Below, piece by piece: positions 6,722 through 52,232 of a DNA stretch of 64,000 bases. A program made the translations under genes and the position numbers. The notes beneath the pieces were generated by a model that was given only the letters and a program-made list of their open reading frames with translations, did not search any database and had not been told where the DNA came from. Each line of letters begins with the position of its first letter. The stretch's first letter is position 1. This stretch comes from Herbaspirillum sp. GW103. Lineage in GTDB: Bacteria; Pseudomonadota; Gammaproteobacteria; Burkholderiales; Burkholderiaceae_D. The stretch covers positions 1,240,001 through 1,304,000 of the forward strand of contig NZ_AJVC01000003.1 of assembly GCF_000261365.1 (NCBI RefSeq), given 5' to 3'.

Positions 6722-8104
6722 TCAAGCGCCGGTGGGATAGTCCGGTGCTTCGCTGGCGGGACCAGCCTGCTCCAGCGGTTCGAGGCTGATGGCCGACAGG
6801 GGCAGCTCCAGCGTCACGCGCGCGCCGCCGGCTGAACGGTTGCTGGCCCAAACGCGACCGCCCAGCTTGCGCGCAACGTTGACCACGAAGAACAGGCCCA
6901 GGCCGCGTCCAGGCTTGCCTTTGGTGGACTGGTAGGGCTTGCCGATCTGATTGATCATCCAGTCGGGGAAACCGGGACCGCGATCGCTCACTTCCATGAG
7001 CAGCAGATCGCCTTCGCGCCGCACTTCCAGGGCCAGCCATTGCGGCGAGACCTCGAAGGCGTTGTCCAGCACATTGCCCAGCATCTGCTTGATGGCCGAG
7101 TCGAAGGCCACCGGCACATCCTGCCCGATCTGGTTGCGGTATTCGAAGATCTCGACGGGACGGGTCTTGCGCCAGTCCTCGGCCACGCTGTCGAGGAAAG
7201 TATTGATCGTGGTCTTGATGGAGGATTCGCCCCGCGCCTCACCGGCAGACAACAGCACGCCGCTGACGATGGACTTGCAGCGCTGCAGCTGCGCTTCCAT
7301 CTCGGCGATGTCGTCAAGCATGTCGGCGCGCTGGCTGATCTCGGGCATGCGTTTCCAGTCGCCCAGGATCACCGAGACGGTCGCCAGGGGCGTACCGAGC
7401 TCATGCGCAGCGCCCGAGGCCAGCAGGCCCATGCGCACGATGTGGTCTTCCTCGGCGGCGCGCTGGCGCAGGTCGGCCAGCAAGGCGTCACCGGCGCGCA
7501 GGTTGCTGCTGATGCGGGTGATGAAGAAGACCATCAATCCGGCATTGAGCAGGAAGCAGATCAGCGTTCCTTCGACGTACAGGCTCAGGAGGCCGGCGTT
7601 ATGGTCCGGCGGCAGCGCCAGTGGTTCCGAAAACAGCGCCAGCCCGGCCAGGCAGAGCATGGTCACGCCGACGATGGCCCAGCTCGACCAGGGCTTGAGC
7701 AGCACCGCCGAGAGAATGATCTGCATCAGATACAGGAAGGCGAAGGGATTGGTGATGCCGCCACTGAGATAGAGCTGGAAGGTCAGTACGGCCACATCCA
7801 CCAGCAAGGCCAGAAACAGTTCAGCATTGGTGGCGATGCGCCGCTCGTGCCAGCGCAGGTGGCTGGCGATATTGAAGGCGATCAGGCAGGACAGCACCTC
7901 CAGCATGTGCGGCAGCGGCAGGTGCAGGTCGAATACCAGCACCACGAAGGCGATGGTGGACACCTGCCCCAGCACCGCCAGCCAGCGCAGCTGGATCAGC
8001 AGCAGCATGTTCTGGTGGCCGGCCGGATTCTGCTCGCCCTGGCGCAGACGCTGCCAGCGCTCGCGCAGCGTCTTGCGCTTGGCGACGGTGTCGGAGGCGG
8101 TCAT
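6722..8104 (-). CDS. regB: Redox sensor histidine kinase RegB/ActS/PrrB type
   Basis: Membrane sensor kinase (460 aa) with about six N-terminal transmembrane segments. The ubiquinone-binding loop motif GGITNPF of this family is at residues 115-121. The H-box is ASGAAHELGTPLAT (His234). The redox-box cysteine (QRCKSIV, Cys276) is the residue that controls kinase activity by oxidation in characterised RegB proteins. The ATPase has LDNAFE, DRGPGFP and GRGLGLF. It starts 3 bases after the SURF1 stop, so the pair is probably co-transcribed with the quinol oxidase operon. Confidence 0.94.
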   Translation of the reverse strand: MTASDTVAKRKTLRERWQRLRQGEQNPAGHQNMLLLIQLRWLAVLGQVSTIAFVVLVFDLHLPLPHMLEVLSCLIAFNIASHLRWHERRIATNAELFLALLVDVAVLTFQLYLSGGITNPFAFLYLMQIILSAVLLKPWSSWAIVGVTMLCLAGLALFSEPLALPPDHNAGLLSLYVEGTLICFLLNAGLMVFFITRISSNLRAGDALLADLRQRAAEEDHIVRMGLLASGAAHELGTPLATVSVILGDWKRMPEISQRADMLDDIAEMEAQLQRCKSIVSGVLLSAGEARGESSIKTTINTFLDSVAEDWRKTRPVEIFEYRNQIGQDVPVAFDSAIKQMLGNVLDNAFEVSPQWLALEVRREGDLLLMEVSDRGPGFPDWMINQIGKPYQSTKGKPGRGLGLFFVVNVARKLGGRVWASNRSAGGARVTLELPLSAISLEPLEQAGPASEAPDYPTGA

Positions 8105-30284: not shown

Positions 30285-30653
30285 TTAGACGCCCACCAGC
30301 TTCTTGAAGGTCGGCAATACTGCCTCCCCCTTGAAGGGCTTGACGATCCAGCCCTTGATGCCGGCCGCCTTGCCGCGCTCCTTCATGATGGGCGAATTCT
30401 CGGTGGTCAGCATGATGATGTTCACGCTGGCATTGCCCAGTTCGCTGCGGATCTTCTCGGCCATGGTCAGCCCATCCATGTTGGGCATGTTCACGTCGGA
30501 GACTACCAGCTTGATGGCCGGGTCGCCCTTGAGCTTGGCCAGGCCATCGCGGCCGTCCACGGCCAGGGCGACGTCCAGGCCATTCTTCTTGAGGAAGTCA
30601 CCGACTTCGGCGCGCACGGTGCTCGAATCGTCCACTACCAGGATTTGTGCCAT
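30285..30653 (-). CDS. CheY-like single-domain response regulator
   Basis: Stand-alone receiver of 122 aa. Acidic pair Asp8-Asp9, phospho-acceptor Asp53 (VVSDVNMPNMDG), Thr in LTTENS and Lys in VKPFKGEAV are all in place; the VKPF/LPTFKKLV end is typical of CheY. It is the last gene of the five-gene operon starting with the CheA-like kinase, and is presumably its diffusible output. The ATG at 30653 fixes a normal CheY N-terminus (MAQILVVDDS). Confidence 0.9.
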   Translation of the reverse strand: MAQILVVDDSSTVRAEVGDFLKKNGLDVALAVDGRDGLAKLKGDPAIKLVVSDVNMPNMDGLTMAEKIRSELGNASVNIIMLTTENSPIMKERGKAAGIKGWIVKPFKGEAVLPTFKKLVGV

Positions 30654-30711
30654 CTTGAATGCTCTCTTTGCTTTGGGGGGGGAAGGTAAATCAGTGCCGG
30701 GCAGCCCGGTT

Positions 30712-31665
30712 TCAGAACAGTTCCAGTTCGCCGGATTCGAACAGTTCCTCGACAGAGGTCTGGTTCTCGGTGAAATCCTCCGGCGACCAAGACAGGTTGA
30801 AGATGAAGCGCTGCAACAGCACCAGCGGTGCACCGTCATCACGGCGCAGCAGATACTTGAAGCACAGCTGCGCATCCTCGGAACCGAAGGAAATGTAGCG
30901 ATGCTGATGATTGATGATGATCGGTACCTGGCTCAATTGATGGACGGGCGGGGCCTGGTTGATGAAGCGGTTCTTGAACCAGCCCCAGATCAGATTGGTC
31001 AGTTCGCCCAGCGCATTGTTGAGATGGCGGAAATCACCCGACTCCTCCGGGGCCAGTGCCTGCAGCGTCTTCTGTTCGGCCTGCAGCATCATGTAGCCAC
31101 GGCACCAGCTGCTCTCCAGCGGAATGAGCGTGAACACTTCGCCGAAGATGATGCGGTCGCGTACCAGGTAAGGCTGTTCGATCTCCACCTGCTTGCCGGG
31201 GAACTGGCTCTCCAGCACCATGCGACTGATCTCGGCAATGCCCCGCACCAGCGCATTGGGATAGCGTTGGCTGAAGATGGACGAGGCCACCGCCGGTGCC
31301 AGCGCATCGATATCCTCGATGCGGTAGACGGCACTGAAGAGTTCGCTGTCGCGTTCGGACAATTCACTATCCACGCTCTCGCGGCGACGGCGCAGGAAGA
31401 TCGGCAGTTCCGGACGTACCTCGCGAATGCGACGGGCCAGGCCCGACACCGTGCCGCCCAGTCCGGCCAGACTTTCCGAGAGCATGATGCCGCCCAGATC
31501 GACGTTGCTGCGCAGGACCGCCATCACGTGTTCCTCATGGGCCTTCAGGCCCACCAGATTGTGGCGATCACAAAAGGATTTGATGGTGTCGTAGCAATCG
31601 GCGTCACGATCGAGCACCAGAATCTTGCTGGTGACGGCGTCGTCAAGGCTGGCAGTGGTTTCCAT
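30712..31665 (-). CDS. Pseudo-receiver plus CheX-type phosphatase domain protein
   Basis: A 317-residue two-domain protein. Residues about 13-130 look like a receiver (KILVLDRDAD...), but the position of the phospho-acceptor is GGIMLSES with no Asp, so it is probably a pseudo-receiver. Residues about 165-305 are CheX/CheC-like with the active-site core ELTN (ExxN: NALGELTN) and a Pro 24 residues later. The protein ends ESGELELF, the same ending as the next CheX protein. ATG 31665 has a GGGGGAA site upstream; a longer start at 31842 would run into the neighbouring gene. It probably dephosphorylates CheY-P. Confidence 0.77.
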   Translation of the reverse strand: METTASLDDAVTSKILVLDRDADCYDTIKSFCDRHNLVGLKAHEEHVMAVLRSNVDLGGIMLSESLAGLGGTVSGLARRIREVRPELPIFLRRRRESVDSELSERDSELFSAVYRIEDIDALAPAVASSIFSQRYPNALVRGIAEISRMVLESQFPGKQVEIEQPYLVRDRIIFGEVFTLIPLESSWCRGYMMLQAEQKTLQALAPEESGDFRHLNNALGELTNLIWGWFKNRFINQAPPVHQLSQVPIIINHQHRYISFGSEDAQLCFKYLLRRDDGAPLVLLQRFIFNLSWSPEDFTENQTSVEELFESGELELF

Positions 31666-31696
31666 GGTGATGAGATTCCCCCGAATCGTTGATGGG

Positions 31697-32305
31697 TCAG
31701 AACAGTTCCAGTTCGCCCGTGGCATCGCCCGCTTCGCCCGCTGCCACGGCAAAGTCCAGCCGGTCGTAGGCGCAGACCGCCAGCGAGACATGCAGGCGCG
31801 GCACCTCGGGCAGGTCGATGGCGAAATGCCGTACGTGCGCACAGTTCAGTTTTTGCAGATAAGCCACACACCGGGTATCAATCACATTGGGCGTGGACAT
31901 GCCCAGGTGCGGAAAATAACGCCCCAGCTCGCGGTTGAAGATGCCGCAGCAAAGATTGCCGCATTCGGCGATGGCATCCAGCAGGGCCTGATCGTCCATC
32001 TCGCCGGCGGCGGCTCGCGTGAGCCGCGCAAAATGCGCACGGGTGCCGGCGTCGGGCCTGAAGTGGAACATCACCATCAGGCGGAACAGGTAAGACGAGA
32101 TGGTCAGCACCACCATCTTCTGATCGGTGAGATCGGCCGCATCCTCGCTCACCGAGATCTCCGCGCTGGTGTCCGCAGGTATCAGGCTGCTGCGCAGCGC
32201 CTGCAGCAGCAGGCTATCGAAGCCGTCGCGGGCGCTGGCACTGATGCGTTCGTCGCCCACCACCTCGGCCACCGCCTGCAATTCGTCCATGTCGTTGGCG
32301 CTCAT
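31697..32305 (-). CDS. CheX-type CheY-phosphatase
   Basis: A 202-residue protein whose residues about 60-190 match the CheC/CheX/FliY family. The active-site signature is complete: D-AIA-E-CG-N (Asp, x3, Glu, x2, Asn) and then Pro after 21 residues (GMSTPN). The family removes phosphate from CheY-P. It ends TGELELF, matching the neighbouring pseudo-receiver-CheX protein. The start overlaps the stop of the MCP-like gene (ATGA), so the two are translated together. Confidence 0.8.
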
Positions 32306-33027
32306 GCGGCTTCAGCCAGGGCCTGGCGGGTCTTCTTGTTGATCAGGTCCAGGCCGATGACGGCGCCCATGATCATCTTGCCGCCAGCCTGCAGGTCCTG
32401 GAAGGTGGTGGTGGTGATCAGGTCGTTCTGGTACAGGTTGGCGCGATAGCTCTTGGAAAGTTTCTCGGCACGCTGCGCCAGATCACGCACTTCCTGTGCC
32501 ACCACGGCAAAGCCACGACCATGCACCCCGGCGCGCGCAGCCTCGATGGAGGCATTGAGGGCCACGATGATGACCTGGTTCACGATCAGGGCGAACTCGT
32601 CGTTCTTGCGGTGCATCTCGCGATTGTGAGCGATCAGTTCGTTCATGTCGTCGTGCCAGCGCTCGAAGGTGCGCACCAGGCCCAGCAGCTTGCTGATGGT
32701 GTCTTGCGACTCGTCGCAGCTCTGGCGCACGCGTGAGACATGGTCGGACTGCGCGCTGGACAGGCGGGCCAGCATGGCCTCGCTCTCGCGGCGCATCGCG
32801 GCCATGTGCTCCTGGGCCGCCAGACGATCCTGCTCCAGCTGCTGCTGATGCGCGGCCCATTGCTGCTGTTGCTCGGCCAGGGTGGCCTGGGCCTGGTCAC
32901 GCACCCGTTCGAGCTGGCCGGCATCGATGAGCTGGCGCGCACGGCGTTTCTGGCGCAACCACAGCCCGGCCAGCGGCAGACCGGCCAGCACGGCGCCCAG
33001 CGCCACCAGGAGAAGAGAATGAAACAT
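32302..33027 (-). CDS. Short MCP-like signalling protein
   Basis: A 241-residue protein with one N-terminal transmembrane helix (about 3-24), a coiled coil rich in Gln/Glu (35-140), and a chemoreceptor signalling tip at 147-185 ([31 protein letters not shown]). It has almost no periplasmic part, no HAMP and little room for methylation helices, so it cannot be a classical receptor. It lies between the membrane CheA-like kinase and the CheX protein and may be a scaffold or adaptor that takes the place of receptor and CheW. AGGAAA precedes the ATG. Confidence 0.85.
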
Positions 33028-33079
33028 GGATCGGTTTTCCTGCTGTCTTGATGATGGTCCGTGATCGCAGCCCGGAAGC

Positions 33080-35506
33080 TCAGGCCACCTGCTCGTCGCC
33101 GCCCTGCGGCAGCACGACCGGTGCGGCCACGTCCTGCCCCGCCATGGGGTAAGGGACATCGATGCCGTCGACTTCCACCGCCACGTTCTCGGGCAGCATG
33201 ACGATGATCTGGAAGGTGCGGAAGGCTGCACCTTCCTCGGTATCCATGAAACGGATCTCGATCCTGCCGTGTTCGCGGGTCACGAAGTCCAACACCGCAT
33301 CCATGCCCACGCCGCGTCCCGAGACCTCGGTCACTTCGCTGCGGGTGGAGAAGCCCGGTTGCAGGATCAGCCGCGCAATCTCGGCATCGGTGAGCACCTG
33401 GTCCACCGTGATGAGCTGCTTCTCGATGCCAATCTGGCGCACCTTGTGCAAGGCCAGACCACGGCCATCGTCGGACAGGGCCATCTGGAACATGTCGTCC
33501 ATCACGCCCATCTCCAGCTTGATGGTGCCGGCCTCCGGCTTGCCCTTGGCCAGGCGTTCTTCACCGGTCTCCAGGCCATGATCGACCGCATTGCGGATCA
33601 GGTGCATGAAGACGTTCTGCAGCAGCGGCGAGGCGAAGCTGTGGACCACGTAGCCGTTGTCATCGATCAGCACGACCGGAGCCGCCTTGCCGAGATCCTC
33701 CGCCAGGGCCGGCAGCGAATCGATGACCGGAGCCAGGACTTCCTCGATGGTCTCGGTACCGAGCAGGCGCAGGGTGCGGCGCACATCGTTGCGCACGGCC
33801 ACCAGTTCATGCAGGTTGGCGGTATTGACGTTTTCCAGACGCAGCAGGCTGTCCTGGATATGCTTGCGGTCGATGGTCAGGACATGGCGCGCATAACCCG
33901 GCAGCACCGCTTCCACACCCGCAGCCGCACCACGACCCAGGGTCACGTCGTTGATACGGGCGTAACGGTCGATGATCTCGCGCACCTGCGCCAGTTGCAG
34001 CAGCAGCGCTTCCTGACTCCAGACAGCGCCGCTGTCGGCGTGGCGCAGGTCGTCGTAGTGTTGCTCTGTCTGGTGAACGACGTTGGCCAGGTGCAGCAGG
34101 CCATAGGTACGACCGTTGCCCTTGATGGTGTGCATGTTGCGGAACAGTTTGGCGATGGCAAAGGCGGTGGCTTCCGGGTTCTGGTGGACGATCTGCTCGT
34201 TCTCGTCCAGGAAGCGGCGCGCGCTGCCGATGAAGTCGGCAAACTTGGCCGGCGCGACGGCGAGGATTTCGCCGATCATTTCCAGTTCGCGCTTCTGCTC
34301 GTTGGCTTCGGCAGCCAGCTGGCGCAGCTCGGTCACGTCGCGTACGCACAGCATCAGGCGAATCACCCTGTCCTCTTCATCGGTGATGGGCGACCAGGAC
34401 AGATCGAGGATCTTCACGCTGCCATCGGCCATGGTCTTTTCGATTTCGCCGACCATGAGGTGTTCGTTGAAGGTGAAATTCATCAGGTCTTCACCGATGC
34501 AGGCACCACCGATGGCTTCGATCTGCGAGAGGGTGTCGGCGCCCAGGTTGGTGTTGGAGAAGACCAGCTCCATCACGTCGCGGCCTGCGATGTCGGTGGT
34601 CTCGAAGACGGTTTCGAGGAAGGCGGAATACTCCGGATGCACCTTGTTGCCGTCCACGATGGTCAGAATGCCCTGCGGGATGTTCTGCAGCATGGCCTGC
34701 ATGTCGGCAGTCTTCTGGCGCACCTGGGCCGAGGCTAGTTCGATCTTCTCGACCATGCCGTTGAAGGCAACGATGGAGTGCCCCACTTCATCCATGCGCT
34801 GTACCGGCAGGCGACGGGTAAAGTCCTGGCTGGTGGCGATCTCGCCCATCATGGCCGCCATGCGGCTGATCGGCCCGGTGATCTGGCGATACAGCAGGAA
34901 GCCCAGGCCACCCAGCAGCAACACCGCCACCACGGTGACGATGCTGATGGTGGTAGTGGTCTGCGCCAGCTTGTCGTTCAACGAGGCGATCGCATTGTCC
35001 TTGAAACGGTTCTTCTCGATGCGCAGGGTGTTGACGATGCCTTCCAGCTCGGTCTGGTACTGCATCACGCCGCCGAAGAACTGCGCCTGGGCGATCTCGT
35101 TCTTGCCGGCCAGCTTGAACTTGGCGGTGGTATCGATGGCGCCGAAGTAATTGTCCAGACTCTCCCTGGCCTGCTCGATCAAGCCGTGCTGGGCCACACC
35201 CTGAGCCTGTCGGGTCTGGGCCGCCAGGGCCTTCTCCAGCACCGCCTTCTTCTCGGCCAGCTTGTCGTTTTCCTGGGCCACCAGCTGCTTGTCGGTCTCG
35301 TTGACCATCACCATCGCGGCCAGCTGCACATCCTTCAACTGGCCCATCAGGTCGGCCGACGCCAGCACGCTGGGCATGACGCCTTCCGTGACCGAGCGTA
35401 CCTCGAGGGCGCTGCTGCGGGACTGCATCATGGCATAGCCGCCAATACCGGCGATAGCAACGAAGGTAAGTATCACCAAAAGCGTGATACGCATGCGGAT
35501 GGTCAT
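33080..35506 (-). CDS. Membrane-bound CheA-like hybrid: sensor, HAMP, PAS, Hpt and ATPase
   Basis: An 808-residue protein combining receptor and kinase. Transmembrane helices near 8-25 and 187-206 flank a four-helix-bundle-type periplasmic sensor. HAMP is about 207-260, PAS about 270-395, an Hpt-like helix with MHTIKGN (His459) about 415-500, and a CheA-type ATPase about 560-770 (N-box [22 protein letters not shown] and SGRGVGMD). No CheW-like P5 or CheY-binding P2 domain is present. AAGGGGAA precedes ATG 35506. It heads the operon MCP-like, CheX, pseudo-REC-CheX, CheY, and is the likely phosphate source for that CheY. Confidence 0.87.
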
Positions 35507-42714: not shown

Positions 42715-43899
42715 ATGAGCCGCTACCTGACCTCTGCCGAGGCCGCCACCCTGCTGGGCATATCACGCCAGACGCTGTACGCCTATGTCAGTCGCGGGCT
42801 GCTGCACGCCCACCCCGGCGGGCAAGCCCGCGACAGCCGCTACCTCGCCACCGATGTCGAGCGACTGGCGGCCAATCGTAGCCGTGGCCGCAAGCCGCGC
42901 GAAGTGGCGCGCGCCACGCTGGACTGGGGGCTGCCGGTGTTGGAGTCGGCGCTTACGCTGATCGAAGACGGAAGGCTCTACTACCGGGGCGTTGATGCCG
43001 CGCAGCTCAGCGCGACGGCCACCGTCGAGGAGGTGGCCGCTTTGCTGTGGGATTGCAACGTGGAGGATGCCTTCGATGGGACGCTGCCGACCGTCTGCGC
43101 CCGGCTGGCCACCGTACAGGCCGATTGGGCCAGGGGCCGCGCCGAACAGACGCTGTTACCGTTGTTCGCCCTGGCCTGCGGCGAGGACATCGGCGCCCAA
43201 TGGCATCTGCCCCGGCCGCGGCAACTGGCCAGCTGCGGCCTGCTGGTGCGCCGCCTGGCGGCCTGCCTGCTGGGAACCGCCCCCGCCACCGGCCCCCTGC
43301 ACCTGCAATGCGCCAGCGCCTGGGGACTCGATGAGGCCGCTGCCCAGTTGGTCAGGCGAGCCCTGGTGCTGTGCGCTGATCATGAACTGAATGCTTCCGG
43401 CTTCACCGCCCGTTGTGTTGCCTCGACCGGTGCCAGTCTGCAAGCCGCCATCATCGGCGGCCTGGCCGCCTTGTCCGGCCCGCTGCACGGTGGCACCACG
43501 GCGCGCGTCGAAGCGCTGCTTGATGCGCTGGACAATCAGGCCGACCCGGTTGCCGCCGTGCAAGAACGGCTGGCACGCGGCGAGGAACTCCCCGGCTTTG
43601 GCCACCATCTCTACCCGCAGGGTGACGTGCGGGCCAGCGCCCTGCTGGCCCCCCTGCTATCGTCGCATCCGCGCTGGCAAGCCGTGATCGAGGCAGTGCG
43701 CACGCTGACCGGCCATCCTCCCTCCGTCGATTTCGCCCTGGTCGCCTTGCGACGCCATCTGCAACTGCCACCGGGCAGCGCCTTCGGGCTGTTCGCCCTG
43801 GGCCGCTCGCTAGGCTGGATCGCCCACGCCCTCGAACAAGGACGCAGCGGTGGGCTGATCCGCCCGCGCGCGGCCTACACCGGTGTGCGCCCTGGCTGA
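42715..43899 (+). CDS. Citrate synthase-family protein with N-terminal DNA-binding domain
   Basis: A 394-residue fusion. Residues 1-60 are an excisionase/MerR-type helix-turn-helix (YLTSAEAATLLGISRQTLYAYVSRGLL, DSRYLATDVERL). Residues about 65-390 are citrate synthase fold: the catalytic His in ADHELNASGFTARC, GPLHGGTT, PGFGHHLYPQGDVRA and the Asp in SVDFALVAL. Family members act on acetyl- or propionyl-CoA and a keto acid. The domain pair suggests an enzyme that also regulates, or a regulator that uses the enzyme fold to sense a metabolite. Divergent from the class III CoA-transferase. Confidence 0.87.
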   Translation: MSRYLTSAEAATLLGISRQTLYAYVSRGLLHAHPGGQARDSRYLATDVERLAANRSRGRKPREVARATLDWGLPVLESALTLIEDGRLYYRGVDAAQLSATATVEEVAALLWDCNVEDAFDGTLPTVCARLATVQADWARGRAEQTLLPLFALACGEDIGAQWHLPRPRQLASCGLLVRRLAACLLGTAPATGPLHLQCASAWGLDEAAAQLVRRALVLCADHELNASGFTARCVASTGASLQAAIIGGLAALSGPLHGGTTARVEALLDALDNQADPVAAVQERLARGEELPGFGHHLYPQGDVRASALLAPLLSSHPRWQAVIEAVRTLTGHPPSVDFALVALRRHLQLPPGSAFGLFALGRSLGWIAHALEQGRSGGLIRPRAAYTGVRPG

Positions 43900-44038: not shown

Positions 44039-45592
44039 ATGGTCGTCCCGTTTTGCCGCGTCGCAGCCAGCGCCCGTCTTCGTCATTTCACTCATCCTCC
44101 ACAACACTTCGCCTTCCGCGCCAAGAAGGCAATGACGGTACTGGTGCTGGCTGCGCTCCTGGGCGGCTGCGCGGTCGGACCCGACTATGTGCGCCCGGCC
44201 ATCGACCTGCCCGCGGCCTACAAGGAACAGGGCCCCTGGAAAGTCGCCGTCCCGCGCCAGGTCGATGATCGCCAGCGCTGGTGGGAAGCCTATGGCGACC
44301 CCGTCCTCGATGAGCTGGTCAGTCAGGCCAACGCCGCCAACCAGACCATCCAGCAGGCTGCGGCCCAGTATCGCCAGGCCCAGGCCACGGCTGCGGCGGC
44401 GCGGGCCAGCCTGTGGCCGACCATCGGTGCGCAGGCCGGGGCCACGCGCGCACAGACCAATACCAACGGCGTACAACGCCTGGGCGACAGCTATACCGTG
44501 GGCTTGAACGCCTCGTGGGAGGCCGACCTCTGGGGCCGCATCCGCCGTGGCGCCGAGGCCGGTGACGCCGGCGCCGAAGCCAGTGCCGCCAGCCTCGCGG
44601 CTGCCCGCCTGGCAATTCAGGCGACTCTGGTGCAAAACTATCTGCAACTGCGCGTGACCGACCTGCAGAAAGACTTGTATCGCCGCACCGTGGCGGCCTA
44701 TACACGCTCCCTGCAACTGACCACGCATCAATACGAAGCCGGTACCGCCCTGCGCTCCGACGTCGCCCAGGCCGATACGCAACTGCGCGCTGCCCAAGCC
44801 CAATGGATCGATCTGGACGCCACCCGCAACCAGCTGGAACACGCCATCGCCATGCTCATCGGCAAGGCCCCGGCCGCCTTCAGCCTGGCACCGCTGCCGC
44901 CCGCCGCGGCCAGCGACCGCGGCATGGATACCAACGCCCTGCGCCTGCAAGCCAGCCTGCCGCAGATCCCGGCAGGACTGCCCTCGGACCTGCTGGAACG
45001 CCGTCCCGACATCGCCAATGCCGAACGCCTGGCCGCCGCCGCCAATGCCAACATCGGCGTGGCGCGTGCAGCCTACTTCCCGACCCTGACCCTGTCGACC
45101 AGCGGGGGCTACAACAGCGCTTCCCTGGCCGATCTGTTCAATACCCCGGGCCGCGTCTGGTCGCTGGGCGCAGCGCTGGCCGAGACCCTCTTCGATGGCG
45201 GCGCACGCAGTGCCCGCAACGATGCCGCTGTCGCCGCCTATGACGCCGCCGCTGCGCAATACAAGCAGACGGTCCTGGCCGCTCTGCAGGACGTGGAAGA
45301 CAACCTCTCCACCTTGCGTGTGCTGGACCAGGAAAGCGCGGCCCAGGCCCAGGCGGTGCAATCGGCGCAGTTGGCCGAACGGCTGGCCATGCGCCAGTAC
45401 CAGGCCGGCACCGTCACCTACCTGTCGGTCGTGACCACCCAGGCCACGTCCCTGAGCAATCAGCGCAGTGCCGTCACCCTGCTGGGCCGCCAGCTGGTGG
45501 CCAGCGTCGCGCTGATCAAGGCGACCGGCGGCGGCTGGCAGGTGGGACAGCCCGCTGCCGCCAGCGTGCAGGTACCGATGGCGGCGCGCTGA
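44039..45592 (+). CDS. RND efflux outer-membrane channel lipoprotein (NodT/OprM family)
   Basis: TolC-like outer-membrane factor, 517 aa, with two OEP repeats. It has a lipoprotein signal with lipobox LLGGC and mature start CAVGPDYVRPAI; ADLWGRIRRG, DLLERRPDIANAE and the NASWEADLWG pattern are typical. Start is uncertain: ATG 44039 is used, GTG 44030 is in frame, and the segment before the lipobox is unusually long and basic (RHFTHPPQHFAFRAKKAM). First gene of the channel-adaptor-pump operon. Confidence 0.87.
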   Translation: MVVPFCRVAASARLRHFTHPPQHFAFRAKKAMTVLVLAALLGGCAVGPDYVRPAIDLPAAYKEQGPWKVAVPRQVDDRQRWWEAYGDPVLDELVSQANAANQTIQQAAAQYRQAQATAAAARASLWPTIGAQAGATRAQTNTNGVQRLGDSYTVGLNASWEADLWGRIRRGAEAGDAGAEASAASLAAARLAIQATLVQNYLQLRVTDLQKDLYRRTVAAYTRSLQLTTHQYEAGTALRSDVAQADTQLRAAQAQWIDLDATRNQLEHAIAMLIGKAPAAFSLAPLPPAAASDRGMDTNALRLQASLPQIPAGLPSDLLERRPDIANAERLAAAANANIGVARAAYFPTLTLSTSGGYNSASLADLFNTPGRVWSLGAALAETLFDGGARSARNDAAVAAYDAAAAQYKQTVLAALQDVEDNLSTLRVLDQESAAQAQAVQSAQLAERLAMRQYQAGTVTYLSVVTTQATSLSNQRSAVTLLGRQLVASVALIKATGGGWQVGQPAAASVQVPMAAR

Positions 45593-45647
45593 CGGGCGTG
45601 CTGCATCTTCCCAATCCCATGTGCATTTTCCAGGACGAGTTTCCGGC

Positions 45648-46862
45648 ATGACCACCTCACCCAACTCCCGCAACACTTCCCCGACTGCGCAACGCTCCCG
45701 CCTGGCCCTCTTCGTGGCGACGGCACTCATCCTCACCACCGGTGCTGGCGGCTGGATCACCCTGCAGCGCGCCCGCGCCGCCGACCAGCCGGCTGCCAAG
45801 GCAACACCGCCAGTGTCGGTCTCGCTGGCCCGCGTACAGGAGCGCGATCTGCCGCTCTACCTGGCCGGGGTCGGCACCGTCACCGCCAATGCCAGCGTGG
45901 TCGTCAGGACGCGCATCGACGGCCAGCTGGACCAGGTCGGGTTCCAGGAAGGTGCCGAGGTCAAGAAGGGACAACTGCTGGCCCGGATCGACCCGCGTGC
46001 CCTGCAGGCACAGCTGGCCCAGGCCGAGGCGCAGCGCGCCAAGGACGCCGCCACCCTCATGAATGCGCGACTGGACCTGCAGCGCTATACCACCCTGCGC
46101 AGCCAGGATGCCGCGACACAGCAGCAGCTCGATACGCAGAAGGCGCTGGTGGCGCAGCTGGAAGCTGCGGTCAAGACCGATGAGGCGCAAGTGGCCTATG
46201 CCCGGGTGCAACTGAGCTATACCACCATCCATGCGCCCATCTCGGGGCGCGTCGGCGCACGTCTGGTCGATCCGGGCAATATCGTGCATGCCAGCGATGC
46301 CAACGGGCTGGTGGTGATCAACCAGATCGATCCCATCACCCTGGTCTTCACCTTGCCGGAAGACGCCGTGGTCGGCATCAATCGCGCTCAGCGCAGCAGC
46401 CAGCAGCCGCTCAAGGTGATCGCCTATGCGCGCGATTCGCAGGAGATACTGGCCACCGGCAAACTGGTGTTGCTGGACAACCAGATCAACACCGGCAACG
46501 GCACCGTGCAACTGAAGGCGCGCTTCGACAATGCCCAACACACGCTCTGGCCAGGCCAGTACGTCAATGCCCGCCTGCAGATGAACAGCCACGGCAATGC
46601 CCTGACGGTCCCGGCAGCGGCCATCCAGCGCAACCAGCAAGGCACCTACGTCTATGCCATCGACCAGGACGACAAGGCCGACATGCAGCCGGTCAAGGTC
46701 GACCGTATCCAGGACGGCATTGCCGTCCTGGCCGCCGACAGCGGCGTGAGCGCTGACCAGCGCGTGGTCATTGACGGACAGTACAAGCTCAAGCCCGGCA
46801 GCCGCATCGTCGAAAGCAAGCCGCAGTCGGCCAGTGCCCAGACGAAAGGAAGCACCAAGTGA
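45648..46862 (+). CDS. RND efflux periplasmic adaptor (MdtA-like)
   Basis: Membrane fusion protein of 404 aa: N-terminal membrane anchor (ALFVATALILTTGAGGWITL), lipoyl-like halves VVVRTRIDGQLDQVGFQEGAEVKKGQLLARIDPR and TIHAPISGRVGARLVDPG, coiled-coil hairpin between them, and a beta-barrel domain. Closest in layout to MdtA. It links the NodT channel to the pump; its stop overlaps the pump start (GTGA). ATG 45648 is preferred over the in-frame ATG at 45621. Confidence 0.92.
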   Translation: MTTSPNSRNTSPTAQRSRLALFVATALILTTGAGGWITLQRARAADQPAAKATPPVSVSLARVQERDLPLYLAGVGTVTANASVVVRTRIDGQLDQVGFQEGAEVKKGQLLARIDPRALQAQLAQAEAQRAKDAATLMNARLDLQRYTTLRSQDAATQQQLDTQKALVAQLEAAVKTDEAQVAYARVQLSYTTIHAPISGRVGARLVDPGNIVHASDANGLVVINQIDPITLVFTLPEDAVVGINRAQRSSQQPLKVIAYARDSQEILATGKLVLLDNQINTGNGTVQLKARFDNAQHTLWPGQYVNARLQMNSHGNALTVPAAAIQRNQQGTYVYAIDQDDKADMQPVKVDRIQDGIAVLAADSGVSADQRVVIDGQYKLKPGSRIVESKPQSASAQTKGSTK

Positions 46863-49800
46863 GCGTCTCGGCCACCTTCATCAAGCGCCCCATCGGCACC
46901 ACGCTGCTGGCCATCGCCCTCCTGCTGGTGGGGATTGCGGTCTGGCCGCTGCTGCCGGTGGCACCGCTGCCGCAGGTCGACTTCCCCACCCTCCAGGTGA
47001 CGGCGCAATTGCCCGGAGGCAGTCCCGAGACCATGGCCTCCAACGTGGCGCAGCCGCTGGAGCGGCAGTTCTCGCTCATCGCCGGCCTGTCGCAGATGAC
47101 CTCGCAGAGTACCCTGGGGACCACCCAGATTACGCTGCAGTTCGATCTCAACCGCAACATCGATGCCGCCGCGCTGGACGTGCAGGCGGCCATCAACGCC
47201 TCCACCGGGCAATTGCCCTCGAACCTGCCCAATCCGCCGACCTTCCGCAAGATCAACCCGGCCGACTCGCCCATCATGATCATGTCGGTGCAGTCCGATG
47301 CGCTGCCCCTGACGGTGGTCAACGACTACGCCGACAACATCCTGGCCCAGCAGATCTCGCAGATCTCCGGCGTGGGCCTGGTCAACGTGAACGGCCAGCA
47401 AAAACCGGCCGTACGCATCCAGGTCGATCCGGCCAAGATCGCCACGCTGGGCATCAGCCTGGAAGACCTGCGCGGCGTCATCGCCACCACCACCGTCAAC
47501 CAGCCCAAGGGCACCGTCGATGGTGCGCGTCAGGCCTTTACCGTCTATACCAACGACCAGTTGCTCAAGGCCGAGCAATGGAATGACATGGTCCTGGCCT
47601 GGCGCAATGGGGCGCCGATCCGGGTCAGGGACATCGGCGTAGCGGTCGATGGCCCGGAAAACAACAAGATCGCCGCCTGGGCCTTCGCGGGGGCCGCCAA
47701 TACCGCCGACCACACCATCACCAATGGCCGTTCCATCGTACTGGCCATCACCAAGCAGCCCGGCGCCAACGTGATCGAGACGGTCGGCCGCATCAAGGCC
47801 GCCATGCCCCGCCTGCGCGCTGCCATTCCGGCGGCGATCCACGTCAATACCCTGATCGACCGCACCCAGACCATCCGTGCCTCGGTTCAGGATGTTGAAT
47901 TCACCCTGGTGCTGACCATCGCGCTGGTGGTGATGGTGATCTTCGTGTTCCTGCGCAACGTCGCCGCTACCCTGATCCCCTCGGTGACGGTGCCACTGGC
48001 CATCATGGGCACGGCCGGGGTGATGTATGTGGTCGGCTACAGCCTGGACAACCTCTCGCTCATGGCCCTGACCATTGCAGTCGGTTTCGTGGTGGATGAC
48101 GCCATCGTCATGCTGGAAAACATCTATCGCTACGTCGAACAAGGCATGACGCCGCTGGAGGCGGCCTTGAAGGGGGCCGGCGAGATCGGCTTCACCATCA
48201 TCTCGATCTCGGTGTCGCTGGTGGCAGTGTTCATTCCTCTCTTGCTCATGGGTGGCATCGTGGGGCGGCTGTTCCGCGAATTCGCGGTCACGGTCACGCT
48301 GACCATCGCCGTCTCGGTCATCATCTCGCTCACCCTGACTCCCATGCTGTGCTCGCGCTTCCTCAAGAACGAACATGGTCACCAGCACGGCAAGCTGTAC
48401 CAGTGGTTCGAGCGCGGCTTCGATGCCATGCTCAACGGCTACAAGCGCGCGCTGGACGTGGTGATGCGGCACCAGTTCATCACCCTGATGAGCTTCATTG
48501 CTACCGTGGCGCTGACGGTGGTGCTGTTCATCTTCATCCCCAAGGGCTTCTTTCCTCAGCAGGACAATGGCGTCATCGTCGGCTTTGCCGAATCCTCGCA
48601 GGACACCTCATCGGCGGCCATGCACGAGCGCCTGCTGAAGGTGGCCGAGGTGGTCCGCCGTGATCCGGACGTGCTCGGCTTTGCCATGAGTGCCGGCTCG
48701 ACCACCTTCAACACCGGCCAATTCTTCATCGCGCTCAAGCCAAAGGACGAAGGCCGCACCACCAATGCCGACGAGATCATCGCGCGCCTGCGTCCCCAGG
48801 TCGCGAAGATCCAGGGAGTGAACCTGTTCATGCAGGCCAGCCAGGACATCAACGTCGGTGGCCGTCTTTCGCGTACCCAGTACCAATACACCGTCACCGA
48901 TACCGACCTCGATGAACTCAACGTCTGGGCGCCGCGCATGCTGGAGCGTTTGCGTCGTCTGCCGCAATTGACCGACGTGGCTTCCGACCAGCAGAACCAG
49001 GCGGCCGCCGCCGTCATCACCATCGACCGGGCGCGCGCCTCCAGCTTCGGCATCTCGCCCTCGCTGATCGATGCCACCATCTATGACGCCATCGGCCAGC
49101 GCCAGGTGGCGCAATACTTCACCCAGATCAACAGCTATCACGTCATTCTCGAGGTCACGCCGCAACTGCAGAAGGATCCTTCACTGTTCGACAAACTCTA
49201 CCTGACCTCGCCGCTGACCGGTCAGCAGGTGCCGCTGTCGACCTTCGTGAAAATCGATACCAGCAAGACCTCCTACCTGTCGATCAGCCACCAGAGCCAG
49301 TTCCCGGCAGTGACGATTTCCTTCAATCTGGCCAAGGGCGTGTCGCTGGGCGAGGCGGTCAACGTGATCCAGAAGACCAAGGACGAGATGGGCGTGCCGC
49401 AAACGCTGGTGGGCAACTTCCAGGGTACGGCCAAGGCTTTCGGTGATTCGCTGGCCTCGCAACCCTATCTGATCGCGGCCGCCCTCATTGCGGTCTACAT
49501 CGTGCTGGGCCTGCTCTACGAGAGCTACATCCATCCGCTGACCATTCTCTCGACCCTCCCCTCGGCGGGCGTGGGGGCGCTGCTGATCCTGATGATAGGC
49601 GGCTACGACCTGTCGGTGATTGCCTTGATCGGTATCATCCTCCTCATCGGCATCGTCAAGAAGAACGGCATCATGATGATCGACTTCGCCCTCACCGCCG
49701 AGCGCAGCCAGGGACTGAAACCGGAAGAAGCCATCTACCAGGCCTGCCTGCTGCGCTTCCGCCCCATCATGATGACCACCATGTGTGCCCTGCTCTCGGG

Positions 49801-50011
49801 CCTGCCGCTGATGCTGGGCCATGGTGCCGGTTCCGAGCTGCGTCGTCCGCTGGGCTATGCGATGGTGGGCGGGCTGGTGCTGTCGCAGGCGCTCACGCTC
49901 TTCACCACGCCGGTGGTCTACCTTTATCTGGACCGCGCCCACTACTGGTACGAACGCAAGAAGAAGGCGCGCCAGCAACGCAAGGCGGCATGCCTGGCAC
50001 AGGAGCACTGA
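46859..50011 (+). CDS. RND efflux pump, HAE-1 type (MdtB/MdtC-like)
   Basis: Inner-membrane proton-driven pump, 1050 aa, twelve helices with two large periplasmic loops. The proton-relay pair is in VGFVVDDAIVMLENIYR; FIKRPIGTTLLAIAL at the N-terminus, GSTTFNTGQFFIALKPK, and LLIGIVKKNGIMMIDFAL are typical of MdtB/MdtC. The HME-type metal-pump features are not obvious, so drugs or amphiphiles are likelier substrates than copper, despite the metal-type regulators nearby. Only one pump gene is present, unlike MdtBC, so it may be a homotrimer. Start is GTG. Confidence 0.93.
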   Translation: MSVSATFIKRPIGTTLLAIALLLVGIAVWPLLPVAPLPQVDFPTLQVTAQLPGGSPETMASNVAQPLERQFSLIAGLSQMTSQSTLGTTQITLQFDLNRNIDAAALDVQAAINASTGQLPSNLPNPPTFRKINPADSPIMIMSVQSDALPLTVVNDYADNILAQQISQISGVGLVNVNGQQKPAVRIQVDPAKIATLGISLEDLRGVIATTTVNQPKGTVDGARQAFTVYTNDQLLKAEQWNDMVLAWRNGAPIRVRDIGVAVDGPENNKIAAWAFAGAANTADHTITNGRSIVLAITKQPGANVIETVGRIKAAMPRLRAAIPAAIHVNTLIDRTQTIRASVQDVEFTLVLTIALVVMVIFVFLRNVAATLIPSVTVPLAIMGTAGVMYVVGYSLDNLSLMALTIAVGFVVDDAIVMLENIYRYVEQGMTPLEAALKGAGEIGFTIISISVSLVAVFIPLLLMGGIVGRLFREFAVTVTLTIAVSVIISLTLTPMLCSRFLKNEHGHQHGKLYQWFERGFDAMLNGYKRALDVVMRHQFITLMSFIATVALTVVLFIFIPKGFFPQQDNGVIVGFAESSQDTSSAAMHERLLKVAEVVRRDPDVLGFAMSAGSTTFNTGQFFIALKPKDEGRTTNADEIIARLRPQVAKIQGVNLFMQASQDINVGGRLSRTQYQYTVTDTDLDELNVWAPRMLERLRRLPQLTDVASDQQNQAAAAVITIDRARASSFGISPSLIDATIYDAIGQRQVAQYFTQINSYHVILEVTPQLQKDPSLFDKLYLTSPLTGQQVPLSTFVKIDTSKTSYLSISHQSQFPAVTISFNLAKGVSLGEAVNVIQKTKDEMGVPQTLVGNFQGTAKAFGDSLASQPYLIAAALIAVYIVLGLLYESYIHPLTILSTLPSAGVGALLILMIGGYDLSVIALIGIILLIGIVKKNGIMMIDFALTAERSQGLKPEEAIYQACLLRFRPIMMTTMCALLSGLPLMLGHGAGSELRRPLGYAMVGGLVLSQALTLFTTPVVYLYLDRAHYWYERKKKARQQRKAACLAQEH

Positions 50012-50110
50012 GCCTGTGCAGCAGCGTCATCAACAAGGTCCGGCCGGGAAGGTAGAATCCGGCATGGGCGAGCGCCGGGGAATGTTCCTGGCGCCGCCAG
50101 TGGAGAGCGC

Positions 50111-50803
50111 ATGAAGATCCTGATAGTCGAAGATGAGCAAAAGATGTCCGAGTACCTCTGCAAGGGCCTCACCGAGCAGGGTTGCGCGGTCGATGTGGCC
50201 GGCAACGGGGTCGACGGACAACACCTGGCGATCCAGCATGACTATGACGTCATCGTGCTGGACGTCATGCTGCCGGGCCTGGATGGCTTTGCCGTGCTGC
50301 GTTCGCTGCGCACGGTCAAGCAGACGCCGGTCATCATGCTGACCGCACGGGACAGCGTGGAAGACCGTATCAAGGGCTTGCACGAGGGGGCCGACGACTA
50401 CCTCATCAAGCCCTTCTCCTTCCTCGAACTGCTGGCCCGTCTGCAGGCACTGACCCGCCGGGGACGTGTCCAGGAAGCACCGCAGCTGCGCATCGGCGAC
50501 CTGCAGATCGACCTGATCTCGCGCAAGGCCTTCCGCGGCGGGCTGCGCATCGACCTCACCGCCAAGGAGTTCGCTCTGCTGGCCGTGATGGCACGGCGCC
50601 AGGGGGAAATCCTCTCCAAGACGGCCATTGCCGAACTGGTCTGGGACATGAATTTCGACAGCAACACCAACGTGGTCGAAGTCGCCATCAAGCGCCTGCG
50701 CGCCAAGATCGACGCGCCCTTCGAACAGAAGCTGCTGCATACCGTGCGCGGCATGGGTTACGTGCTGGAGCCGCGCGCCACCTGTGACAGCGACGATGAG
50801 TGA
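50111..50803 (+). CDS. OmpR-family response regulator, CusR/CopR/IrlR type
   Basis: A 230-residue regulator: receiver with EDE (7-9), Asp51 ([11 protein letters not shown]) and Lys (YLIKPF), then a winged helix ([53 protein letters not shown]). The [10 protein letters not shown] and [12 protein letters not shown] patterns are those of heavy-metal regulators. It follows the pump gene by 99 bases and overlaps its kinase gene by 8. It probably binds the CusR-type box at 43897. Confidence 0.93.
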
Positions 50804-52232
50804 GACGCCGATCCCGCAGGGGGCTCGCCTGAACAAACGCCGCCTGCCGCTGCAGCGCTCCATCACGGCGCGCCTGGTGCTCATGTCGGCGGTATCGGCA
50901 CTGCTCATCTTCGCCGTGGCTGCCGTGGTGCTCTACACCGTCCTCAAGGGCGAGCTGCTGCGCCATGAACGCGATTCCCTGTTCACTACCCTCAATGACA
51001 TCAGCTACCAGATCGAACGCGCCGGCACTACCGAACGCTGGAGCCGCGTACAACTGAAACTGTCCACCCTGTCGCAGGCGGACCAGCACGTATTCTTCTG
51101 GATCGCCAGCGAGGATGCACGCTTCACCTATGGCGATCTCACGCGGCTGTCCCCGGCGGCCATCAATCATGTGGATGGCAAGGAGGTCGGACGGCTGCAC
51201 CTGCCGGGGCGGGCCTATCCGCTGCACATCATGACGCGCACCCTGCCTGCCTTCGAGGAGCGCCCGGAAGTCCGGGTCACGGTCGGGGTCGACGGTGCGC
51301 CCTACTTCGAGATGCGGCGCACTTTTCTTCTGGCCACGAGCATTTCCTCACTGCTGGGCATCGTGCTGGCCGTCATTTCCAGCTACTGGATTGCGCGCGC
51401 CGGCCTGGCCCCTTTGCGCCGCATGTCGGCCCGCGCCCAGAGTTTCTCTCCGCGCAAGCTGTCGGCGCGCATGCCGGTGGAAGCCTTGCCGGACGAGCTG
51501 TCGGTCCTGGCCGATGCCTTCAACGGCGCGCTGGAACGCATCGAACAGGCCTATACGCAGCTTGAAGCCTTCAATGCCGACGTCGCCCACGAACTGCGTA
51601 CGCCCCTGGCCAACCTGATCGGCCAGACCCAGGTCGCGCTGGCGCGCGAACGCAGTGCGGGGGAATTCAAGGACGTGCTGCAATCCAATCTGGAAGAGCT
51701 GGACCGCATCCGCTCCATCGTCAACGACATGCTGTTCCTGGCGCGCTCCGACCAGGGCGAAGCCGCCACCGCACGGGTGCCGGTGCGGGTGGCCGAGGCG
51801 GTGCAGAAGACGGTGGATTTCTTCGAATTCGTGCTCGATGACACCGGCATGGCCATCACGGTGGCGGGCGACCTGGAGGCCACGGCCACCATGGAAACCG
51901 CGCTTTTCAAGCGCGCCCTGACCAACCTGATCCAGAACGCCATCCAGCATTCGCCGCAAGGTGCGCAGTTGCGCATTGACATCGCCAGCGGCGAAGACAT
52001 GGTGCGCGTGGCCGTCACCAATCCCGGCGCGGCCATCGACGAGCAACACCTGCCGCGCCTGTTCGACCGCTTCTATCGTGTCGACAGCGCGCGCCAGGAC
52101 ATCAACGGCAGCCACGGCCACGGCCTGGGCCTGGCCATCGTCAAGGCGGTGGCGCGCATGCACGGTGGACGGACCTTCGCCAGCAGCCGTGGCGGGTACA
52201 ACAGCATCGGCTTTACCATCGCGCGCCACTGA
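50796..52232 (+). CDS. Heavy-metal-type sensor histidine kinase (CusS-like)
   Basis: Membrane kinase of 478 aa: two transmembrane helices (about 28-50 and 170-192), periplasmic sensor, HAMP, H-box [12 protein letters not shown] (His265), N-box [13 protein letters not shown], and [21 protein letters not shown] 50796 overlaps the regulator stop and has support from that coupling; GTG 50784 is in frame. The periplasmic loop lacks an obvious Met/His metal-binding cluster, so the signal may not be a metal. Confidence 0.92.

Follow-up and report, generated by a model that had tools for sequence, protein, structure and literature searches.

A five-gene chemosensory-like module of Herbaspirillum with a transmembrane CheA-type kinase lacking P5 and two predicted CheX-type phosphatases ending in a common peptide

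Background

In classical chemotaxis, the phosphatase CheZ, whose fold is unrelated to that of CheX, docks to CheY through its C-terminal peptide, and the peptides of both CheZ and FliM are received on the alpha4-beta5-alpha5 face of CheY. A CheW-like (P5) domain is present in 100% of the 13,673 CheA proteins of a survey (PMC10782961). A further study describes a Vibrio cholerae protein, CheY4, that did not bind FliM in pull-downs and whose gene cluster includes CheA, CheW, CheR, CheB and CheD, and it also reports that an Escherichia coli CheY with the Y106W substitution remains active on the motor (PMC3774744). Here we analyse a module of five genes, encoding a receptor-kinase, a short MCP-like protein, two CheX-type proteins (CheX1 and CheX2) and a CheY, which lies in a stretch of 64,000 nucleotides of Herbaspirillum sp. 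GW103 (contig NZ_AJVC01000003.1, positions 1,240,001 to 1,304,000; this whole stretch is called the window below).

On balance we favour, if only slightly, the interpretation that the module is a chemosensory-derived phosphosignalling system in which the receptor is itself the kinase, CheW is dispensed with, the CheX proteins are tethered to CheY by a common tail and the short MCP serves as a scaffold. It appears to be a chemosensory branch that has so far gone undescribed. A preliminary description of the locus had known of no pathway with this layout, and we likewise found none described in the literature searched, from which subscription journals were mostly missing, so that an undetected one is possible.

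Results

The kinase was previously proposed to carry its own transmembrane helices together with a sensor, HAMP and PAS, and so to merge receptor and kinase in one protein, and this is borne out. Hydropathy gives two transmembrane helices (residues 1-28 and 180-210), and Pfam finds HAMP, Hpt (PF01627) and HATPase_c over the cut-off on the same polypeptide, with 4HB_MCP_1 and PAS below it. There is no P2, and no P5/CheW-like domain was found with Pfam (PF01584, none at E<=1). His459 had been given as the phosphorylated histidine and its position is correct; this residue and those of the N-, G1- and G2-boxes are invariant across the 12 kinases aligned. Ten of eleven matches to PDB sequences are to CheA in the P4 region, the remaining one being weak and unrelated. 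When a profile of 20 homologues of the kinase was compared by hhalign with a profile of eight CheA proteins, columns 414-771 were aligned (Prob 100, E 2.6e-51). This alignment passes from P1 across long gaps to P3 and P4 and ends before P5; the P3 region has no Pfam match at E<=1 and is spanned by hhalign with gaps in its first helix. About 32 unconserved residues follow the part aligned with CheA, and a CheW domain hidden at the C-terminus was ruled out, given no Pfam match and no conservation past P4. By sequence homology the kinase is a CheA, yet it stands outside CheA as defined by the survey, because the P5 domain, universal in that source (PMC10782961), is absent here. The closest kinases are those of H. 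huttiense (94% identical) and H. aquaticum (93%). Among the kinases of the module the sensors are exchanged, with 4HB/HAMP and PAS in some, 4HB/HAMP and GAF in others (L080, L105), PAS with no HAMP in L107 and no input domain over the cut-off in L104.

CheW, CheR and CheB had been described as missing from the operon, and a Pfam search agrees, finding none of them at E<=1e-5 in 20 further proteins of the window, which together with the module genes makes 25 of its 55 open reading frames (ORFs) scanned. A search of the whole genome covered CheW, while CheR and CheB were looked for within the scanned window proteins. It gave 12 CheW-domain matches, none of them within the window, so the module might borrow CheW from elsewhere in the genome.

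Of the two CheX-type phosphatases originally named, CheX1 is supported by its predicted fold. It falls below the PF13690 cut-off (20.7 versus 27), but its model (mean predicted local distance difference test score, pLDDT, 87) has as top structural match 3hzh_B (E 3e-8, template-modelling score, TM, 0.54 on the query), a chain from a Borrelia CheX-CheY complex, with further matches to other CheX, CheC, FliY and FliM structures. CheX2 passes the PF13690 cut-off, and its model (pLDDT 78) matches CheX-like structures (TM 0.77 on 3h4y) as well as receiver proteins, among them RssB. It is not a plain CheX, as a receiver-like domain (about residues 13-130), with Ser-Glu at the place of the phospho-Asp in the alignment consensus, is joined to its CheX domain. 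In the predicted models, then, both proteins have the CheX fold, and the catalytic ExxN is invariant in both, as E114/N117 in 20 rows for CheX1 and as E221/N224 in 15 rows for CheX2.

Both phosphatases end in the same hexapeptide, GELELF. The pattern G-x-[LM]-[ED]-[LMF]-F stands at the extreme C-terminus of 37/37 CheX1 sequences (28 exactly GELELF) and 27/27 CheX2 sequences (22 exactly GELELF), in the case of CheX1 in an alignment whose columns average only about 40% identity. A strict form, [DE]-L-[DE]-L-F-stop, has two matches in the 5.05 Mb host genome, at the ends of the CheX1 and CheX2 genes. The tail of CheX1 has a pLDDT below 50 in the model and is therefore probably flexible. We think that GELELF is probably a docking peptide, with CheY as its putative partner; no mention of it was found in the literature searched. 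QLxLF is a motif that binds the beta-clamp, and a beta-clamp-binding reading of the tail was considered and dropped as unconnected to signalling.

The short MCP was thought to consist of the signalling tip only. The tip is there, MCPsignal (PF00015) being matched at profile positions 45-93 of 172 only, and it is nearly invariant in the alignment, but the protein also has a long stalk and a second conserved site at its base. Hydropathy, Pfam and PDB matches to MCPs give one transmembrane helix (residues 4-22), then the stalk and the tip hairpin, and no sensor or HAMP domain was found. The base site combines ERWH of the first helix with NDL..T.TFQD.QA.G.MI of the second; these probably face each other, because they are similarly distant from the tip. 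A clear transmembrane helix is present in 28/31 called short MCPs, and the three others comprise two proteins that were called too short and L075, which has its full length but scores weakly. From this helix to the tip there are 143-161 residues in the 26/32 short MCPs where the helix is clear, and 71-78 residues lie beyond the tip, a length that would leave no room for methylation helices.

A relationship of the short MCP to CheZ was considered, since the base motif TFQDLQA resembles the catalytic helix ...AQDFQDLTGQ... of the host CheZ proteins, and was rejected: hhalign gave Prob 0.1 and E 0.73, and the position of the CheZ glutamine is held by Gly, Ser or, in L107, Val-Gly. In L107, whose source belongs to the class but not to the order, the short MCP (7186-7902, minus strand) carries an additional acidic C-terminus with the end DFELDF, which is similar to the CheX tail.

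The CheY was correctly recognised, with a Response_reg match and all phosphorylation residues kept (D8, D9, D53, T83, K105), the phospho-acceptor Asp53 being at the position first given for it. It is the most conserved member of the module, with 70-84% identity to the window CheY across one set of the loci, except for the cut copy of L087. Its alpha4 face is basic (K91, R93, K95) and Trp102 stands at the beta5 switch position; 20 representatives show no change at K91, R93, K95, K100 or K118. Such a basic face would suit the acidic tail of the phosphatases. The tryptophan alone decides nothing on motor output, because the Y106W protein of E. coli still acts on the motor.

To follow the distribution we used even samples of 294 genomes of the family (queried with CheX2), 399 of the order and 369 of the class (queried with kinases, at most two candidates being scored per genome, so that carriers may have been missed). 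A search of contigs gave 14 loci with kinase orthologues, 13 in Herbaspirillum and one in Oxalicibacterium, that of L022 being cut by a contig end, and 25/27 Herbaspirillum genomes have the kinase. In the order, 30/399 genomes had a kinase match at E<=1e-30; 18 of these are whole or contig-cut orthologues from 11 families, and in the other 12 the match is limited to P4, to a section of the kinase region or to the N-terminus. In the class, 241/369 genomes matched at 1e-40, nearly all listed ones over P3-P4 only, like ordinary CheAs; real kinase orthologues, or parts of them, occur in four genomes from beyond the order (G686, G909, G910, G916). All 16 CheX2-bearing genomes among the 294 of the family also carry the kinase.

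The short MCP and CheX1 were read together in 37 loci, from Burkholderiales and the four class-mates outside the order (the window, L009-L022, L069-L078, L080, L081, L083, L084, L087-L089, L104, L107, L139, L140 and L141; some are possibly the same species from two collections). Left out for want of this pair were a lone CheX2 (L085), lone kinases (L105, L106) and kinase pieces at contig ends (L079, L082, L086). CheY is whole in 35/37 loci, is cut in L087 and did not turn up in L141. In 36/37 there is an adjacent kinase, although that of L141 is truncated and those of L022 and L078 are cut by the contig end; L139 has none. The preliminary description had suggested looking for the same five genes in the same order elsewhere. 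The set does recur in many families, but it is not fixed: the order is kinase-CheY-MCP-CheX1 in L069, L070 and L073 and kinase-CheX2-CheY-MCP-CheX1 in L072, L075 and L078. Nor is CheX2 an obligatory member, as it is adjacent in only 26/37 loci and not adjacent in 11/37. At 1e-12 it was detected nowhere in G390, G582 and G620, three genomes with four-gene modules, nor in twelve genomes of Herbaspirillum, of which ten carry the kinase. The CheX2 of G185 is not linked to the other module genes. In G916, an MCP-CheX1-CheX2-CheY core lies on one contig (L139) with no kinase beside it, and two GAF-type kinases lie on two other contigs. From these locus contents, and from the unlinked CheX2 and kinases, the MCP-CheX1-CheY core is nearly constant and kinases and CheX2 are attachable to it.

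That unrelated che-like genes came together by chance, with no joint function, might have been suspected from the variable gene order and from the occasional absence of CheX2. This has a negligible probability and is already refuted by the comparative data, as the short MCP and CheX1 are paired in 37 loci of many families, the tail is common to both phosphatases and the four-gene core is kept in G916 although the kinases sit elsewhere.

Some individual loci are of interest in their own right. The two unlinked kinases of G916 (L105 and L106) are both CheA-type and P5-less, and L105, the one scanned, has the GAF input. In G909 (L108/L141) the kinase frame ends after about 300 residues, with the sensor, HAMP and part of PAS kept; short MCP and CheX1 adjoin, and no CheY was found within the 9-15 kb read. 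On a plasmid of Ideonella dechloratans (L087, 9018-13425) the module CheY is cut short beside an integrase gene, just beyond which lie genes of a diversity-generating retroelement (Avd, reverse transcriptase).

Possible outputs were compared between 21 listed carrier genomes, which are not every known carrier, and 34 non-carriers taken at even steps from the order sample and having no kinase match; these statistics ignore relatedness and genome size. CheW is present in 21/21 carriers versus 24/34 non-carriers (p 0.009). This contrast bears on the possibility that the short MCP joins the normal chemotaxis array of the cell by binding canonical CheW/CheA with its tip. The module would then be accessory to the array, supplying it with CheX and CheY and connecting the two pathways. 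The near invariance of the tip, though the module encodes no CheW-fold partner for it, would be accounted for in this way, and the distance from membrane to tip would as one helix be about 21 nm or more, roughly the normal reach of a receptor (estimated with the standard helix rise and receptor-array distance). However, the kinase itself has no P5, and, given the joint occurrence of CheW and FliM in the genomes compared, CheW may be no more than a marker of motile, chemotactic species. We regard such a link to the array as rather unlikely. All the same, the preliminary description, which held that neither array formation nor adaptation can work in the classical way, was right in so far as the short MCP seems to lack space for methylation and the kinase lacks P5, but was too strong in excluding arrays, because of the nearly invariant tip and the presence of CheW in every carrier compared.

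A motor-directed side pathway of chemotaxis, in which phosphorylated CheY would bind FliM and switch the flagellum, gains some support from FliM being found in 21/21 carriers versus 22/34 non-carriers (Fisher p 0.0017), a contrast that is gone when only CheW-bearing genomes are counted (21/21 versus 22/24, p 0.49). The closest paralogues of CheY in the genome (47, 44 and 43% identical) are all beside che genes, and the 43% one adjoins CheZ. On the other side, the closest solved CheY by sequence is 4h60/4hnr, which we take to be V. cholerae CheY4, and because of this resemblance to a protein that did not bind FliM, direct switching of the motor by the module CheY is unlikely. Alignment by hand places K91, K95 and T115 at the E. 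coli FliM contacts I95, A99 and K119, whereas the host CheY beside CheZ retains I, A, Y and K at the contact positions. Motility as a direct output, first suggested among others, is disfavoured by these surface residues, and we hold the motor-directed pathway to be improbable. In G686, a 443-residue frame on a contig other than that of the module has a weak, sub-cut-off match to the CheZ profile (G686:C30:15367-15804, E 4e-4).

An output to the type IV pilus or another surface machine was considered in the same comparison. A PilT-family protein is over the cut-off in 19/21 carriers, but this does not differ significantly from the 25/34 non-carriers (p 0.17), two carriers (G541, G570) have none over the cut-off, and the neighbourhoods share no gene family except a common transporter-like one. 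Such an output is very doubtful.

The five coupled genes are all where the preliminary description had placed them, on the minus strand (Table 1), with distances between them of 52, -4, 31 and 58 bases, the short MCP and CheX1 genes overlapping by 4 bases. A scan for promoters and terminators gave no signal above shuffled sequences, and operon status therefore rests on gene spacing and conservation.

Table 1. Positions of the module genes and of conserved features within the 64-kb window
Feature	Position	Strand	Remarks
Receptor-kinase	33080..35506	-	808 residues; Pfam, hydropathy, PDB sequence matches, hhalign
Domain order of receptor-kinase			TM1 (first transmembrane helix), periplasmic four-helix-bundle-like sensor, TM2, HAMP (204-256), PAS (268-391, sub-cut-off), Hpt/P1 (424-509), short P3-like stretch, CheA-type P4 (628-763)
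Codon of His459, expected phospho-accepting histidine	34130..34132	-	Invariant in 12 aligned kinase rows
Short membrane-anchored MCP-like protein	32302..33027	-	241 residues; Pfam, hydropathy, PDB matches to MCPs
MCP signalling tip	32458..32586	-	Residues 148-190; conserved lNa.IEAAR.G..GRGF.vVA..vR.La
Base motif, C-terminal helix of short MCP	32371..32427	-	Residues 201-219; conserved NDL.TT.TFQD.QA.GKMI
CheX1	31697..32305	-	202 residues; CheX-fold phosphatase by Pfam, alignment, predicted model
C-terminal GELELF tail of CheX1	31700..31717	-	Conserved C-terminal hexapeptide
CheX2	30712..31665	-	317 residues; receiver-like domain and CheX domain; Pfam, alignment, model
C-terminal GELELF tail of CheX2	30715..30732	-	Conserved C-terminal hexapeptide
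CheY	30285..30653	-	122 residues, stand-alone; Pfam Response_reg

None of the flanking genes is chemosensory by Pfam: on one side stand a PLD/VTT protein and an endonuclease/phosphatase-family protein, and on the other a chloride channel and a PCC-domain protein. When 300 ORFs lying up to 6 kb from the module in 36 sources (20 non-Herbaspirillum ones contributing; L104-L141 outside the test) were compared by all-against-all BLAST, no sixth conserved gene emerged. The single family common to more than two non-Herbaspirillum loci is a protein of 241-281 residues, tentatively transporter-like and of a common kind, in five loci and several kb away; the remaining common families are confined to pairs of loci, mostly one related pair. 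Elsewhere in the window there is an efflux operon (outer-membrane protein, HlyD-type and AcrB-type genes) followed by a response regulator and a sensor kinase (44132-52232), and a citrate synthase domain fused to a helix-turn-helix domain (42715-43899).

Discussion

We infer the phosphotransfer, the dephosphorylation, the docking partner, the scaffold role and the output as follows. The transmembrane kinase would sense through its periplasmic domain, its PAS domain or both, autophosphorylate His459 with its CheA-type P4 and pass the phosphoryl group to Asp53 of the stand-alone CheY. Because it has no P5, it would work with no need of CheW, as an ordinary dimeric receptor-kinase. The two CheX phosphatases would strip the phosphoryl group again, both being tethered by GELELF, for which the likeliest anchor is the basic alpha4-beta5-alpha5 face of CheY, in the manner of the CheZ and FliM peptides. 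Rather than sensing, the short MCP may act as a membrane-anchored scaffold for the CheY/CheX part. MCP-CheX1-(CheX2)-CheY would be the constant unit, fed by a single kinase or by several that differ in their sensors, and phosphorylated CheY would act on a partner encoded elsewhere, probably not FliM. In outline, a route from a receptor-CheA to CheY, reversed by tethered CheX, is plausible.

Several points weigh against this interpretation. To our knowledge there is no biochemistry for any member of the module. Within the module there is no partner for the nearly invariant tip of the short MCP, which a pure scaffold leaves unexplained, and as every carrier examined has CheW, a dependence on CheW is possible; the comparison of the short MCP with CheZ by hhalign found nothing. 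As to the tail, the reversed control of the strict pattern gave three matches in the genome, so the finding of no further strict tails is suggestive only, and the search was made with Leu at the middle positions, Met and Phe variants being outside it. Disorder of the CheX2 tail is not clear-cut, since the last pLDDT blocks of the model are at 64-69 and a short strand is drawn there.

Going further, the module might be a separate, undescribed chemosensory branch, in which a constant membrane unit (the MCP stalk, CheY and the GELELF-tethered phosphatases) is combined with interchangeable CheA receptor-kinases that require neither CheW nor methylation, the MCP remnant being no receptor but a platform for phosphatases and response regulator on which several kinases may converge; we put this forward as a tentative possibility. 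Whether it is so or not, a kinase with P1, a P3-like stretch, P4 and its own sensor but no P5 would be a relict or breakaway form of CheA, and offers a way to ask what controls CheA catalysis when CheW and arrays are absent. The common tail is a candidate docking code of CheX phosphatases that can be tested directly, and the separable core suggests a rewiring of chemosensory parts into a design of many kinases to one CheY.

Among known systems, the module shares with the canonical CheA-based ones (F1-F17, ACF, Tfp) the CheA-type P1 and P4 with a P3-like stretch between them, the CheY, the MCP tip and the CheX-family phosphatases. Unlike them, it has a kinase with no P5 and with the sensor fused to it, a receptor reduced to a stalk and tip with one transmembrane helix, and no CheW, CheR or CheB found with it. 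A single polypeptide with sensor, HAMP, PAS and kinase, together with one likely cognate regulator, recalls a transmembrane sensor histidine kinase and its response regulator, but here the phosphohistidine would be in Hpt/P1 and catalysis would be by a CheA P4 and not with HisKA. Unlike that of ordinary two-component pairs, the regulator is a stand-alone CheY, accompanied by two CheX phosphatases and an MCP remnant. The predicted fold and the ExxN are those of the CheX/CheC proteins of Thermotoga and Borrelia (1squ, 3hzh), from which the module differs in the common GELELF tail, in the fusion of CheX2 to a receiver-like domain with no phospho-Asp, and in having two such proteins in one operon. 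As in CheZ, the phosphatases end in an acidic-hydrophobic peptide with a final Phe (...VDDLLESLGF and ...VDDLLDSLGF in the two host CheZ proteins), but both peptide and fold differ from those of CheZ, and docking to CheY is here putative. Finally, the module CheY has in common with V. cholerae CheY4, presumably its nearest solved relative, the Trp at the beta5 switch and the Lys of alpha4, whereas the gene cluster of CheY4 (PMC3774744) includes the CheW, CheR and CheB that were not found beside the module.

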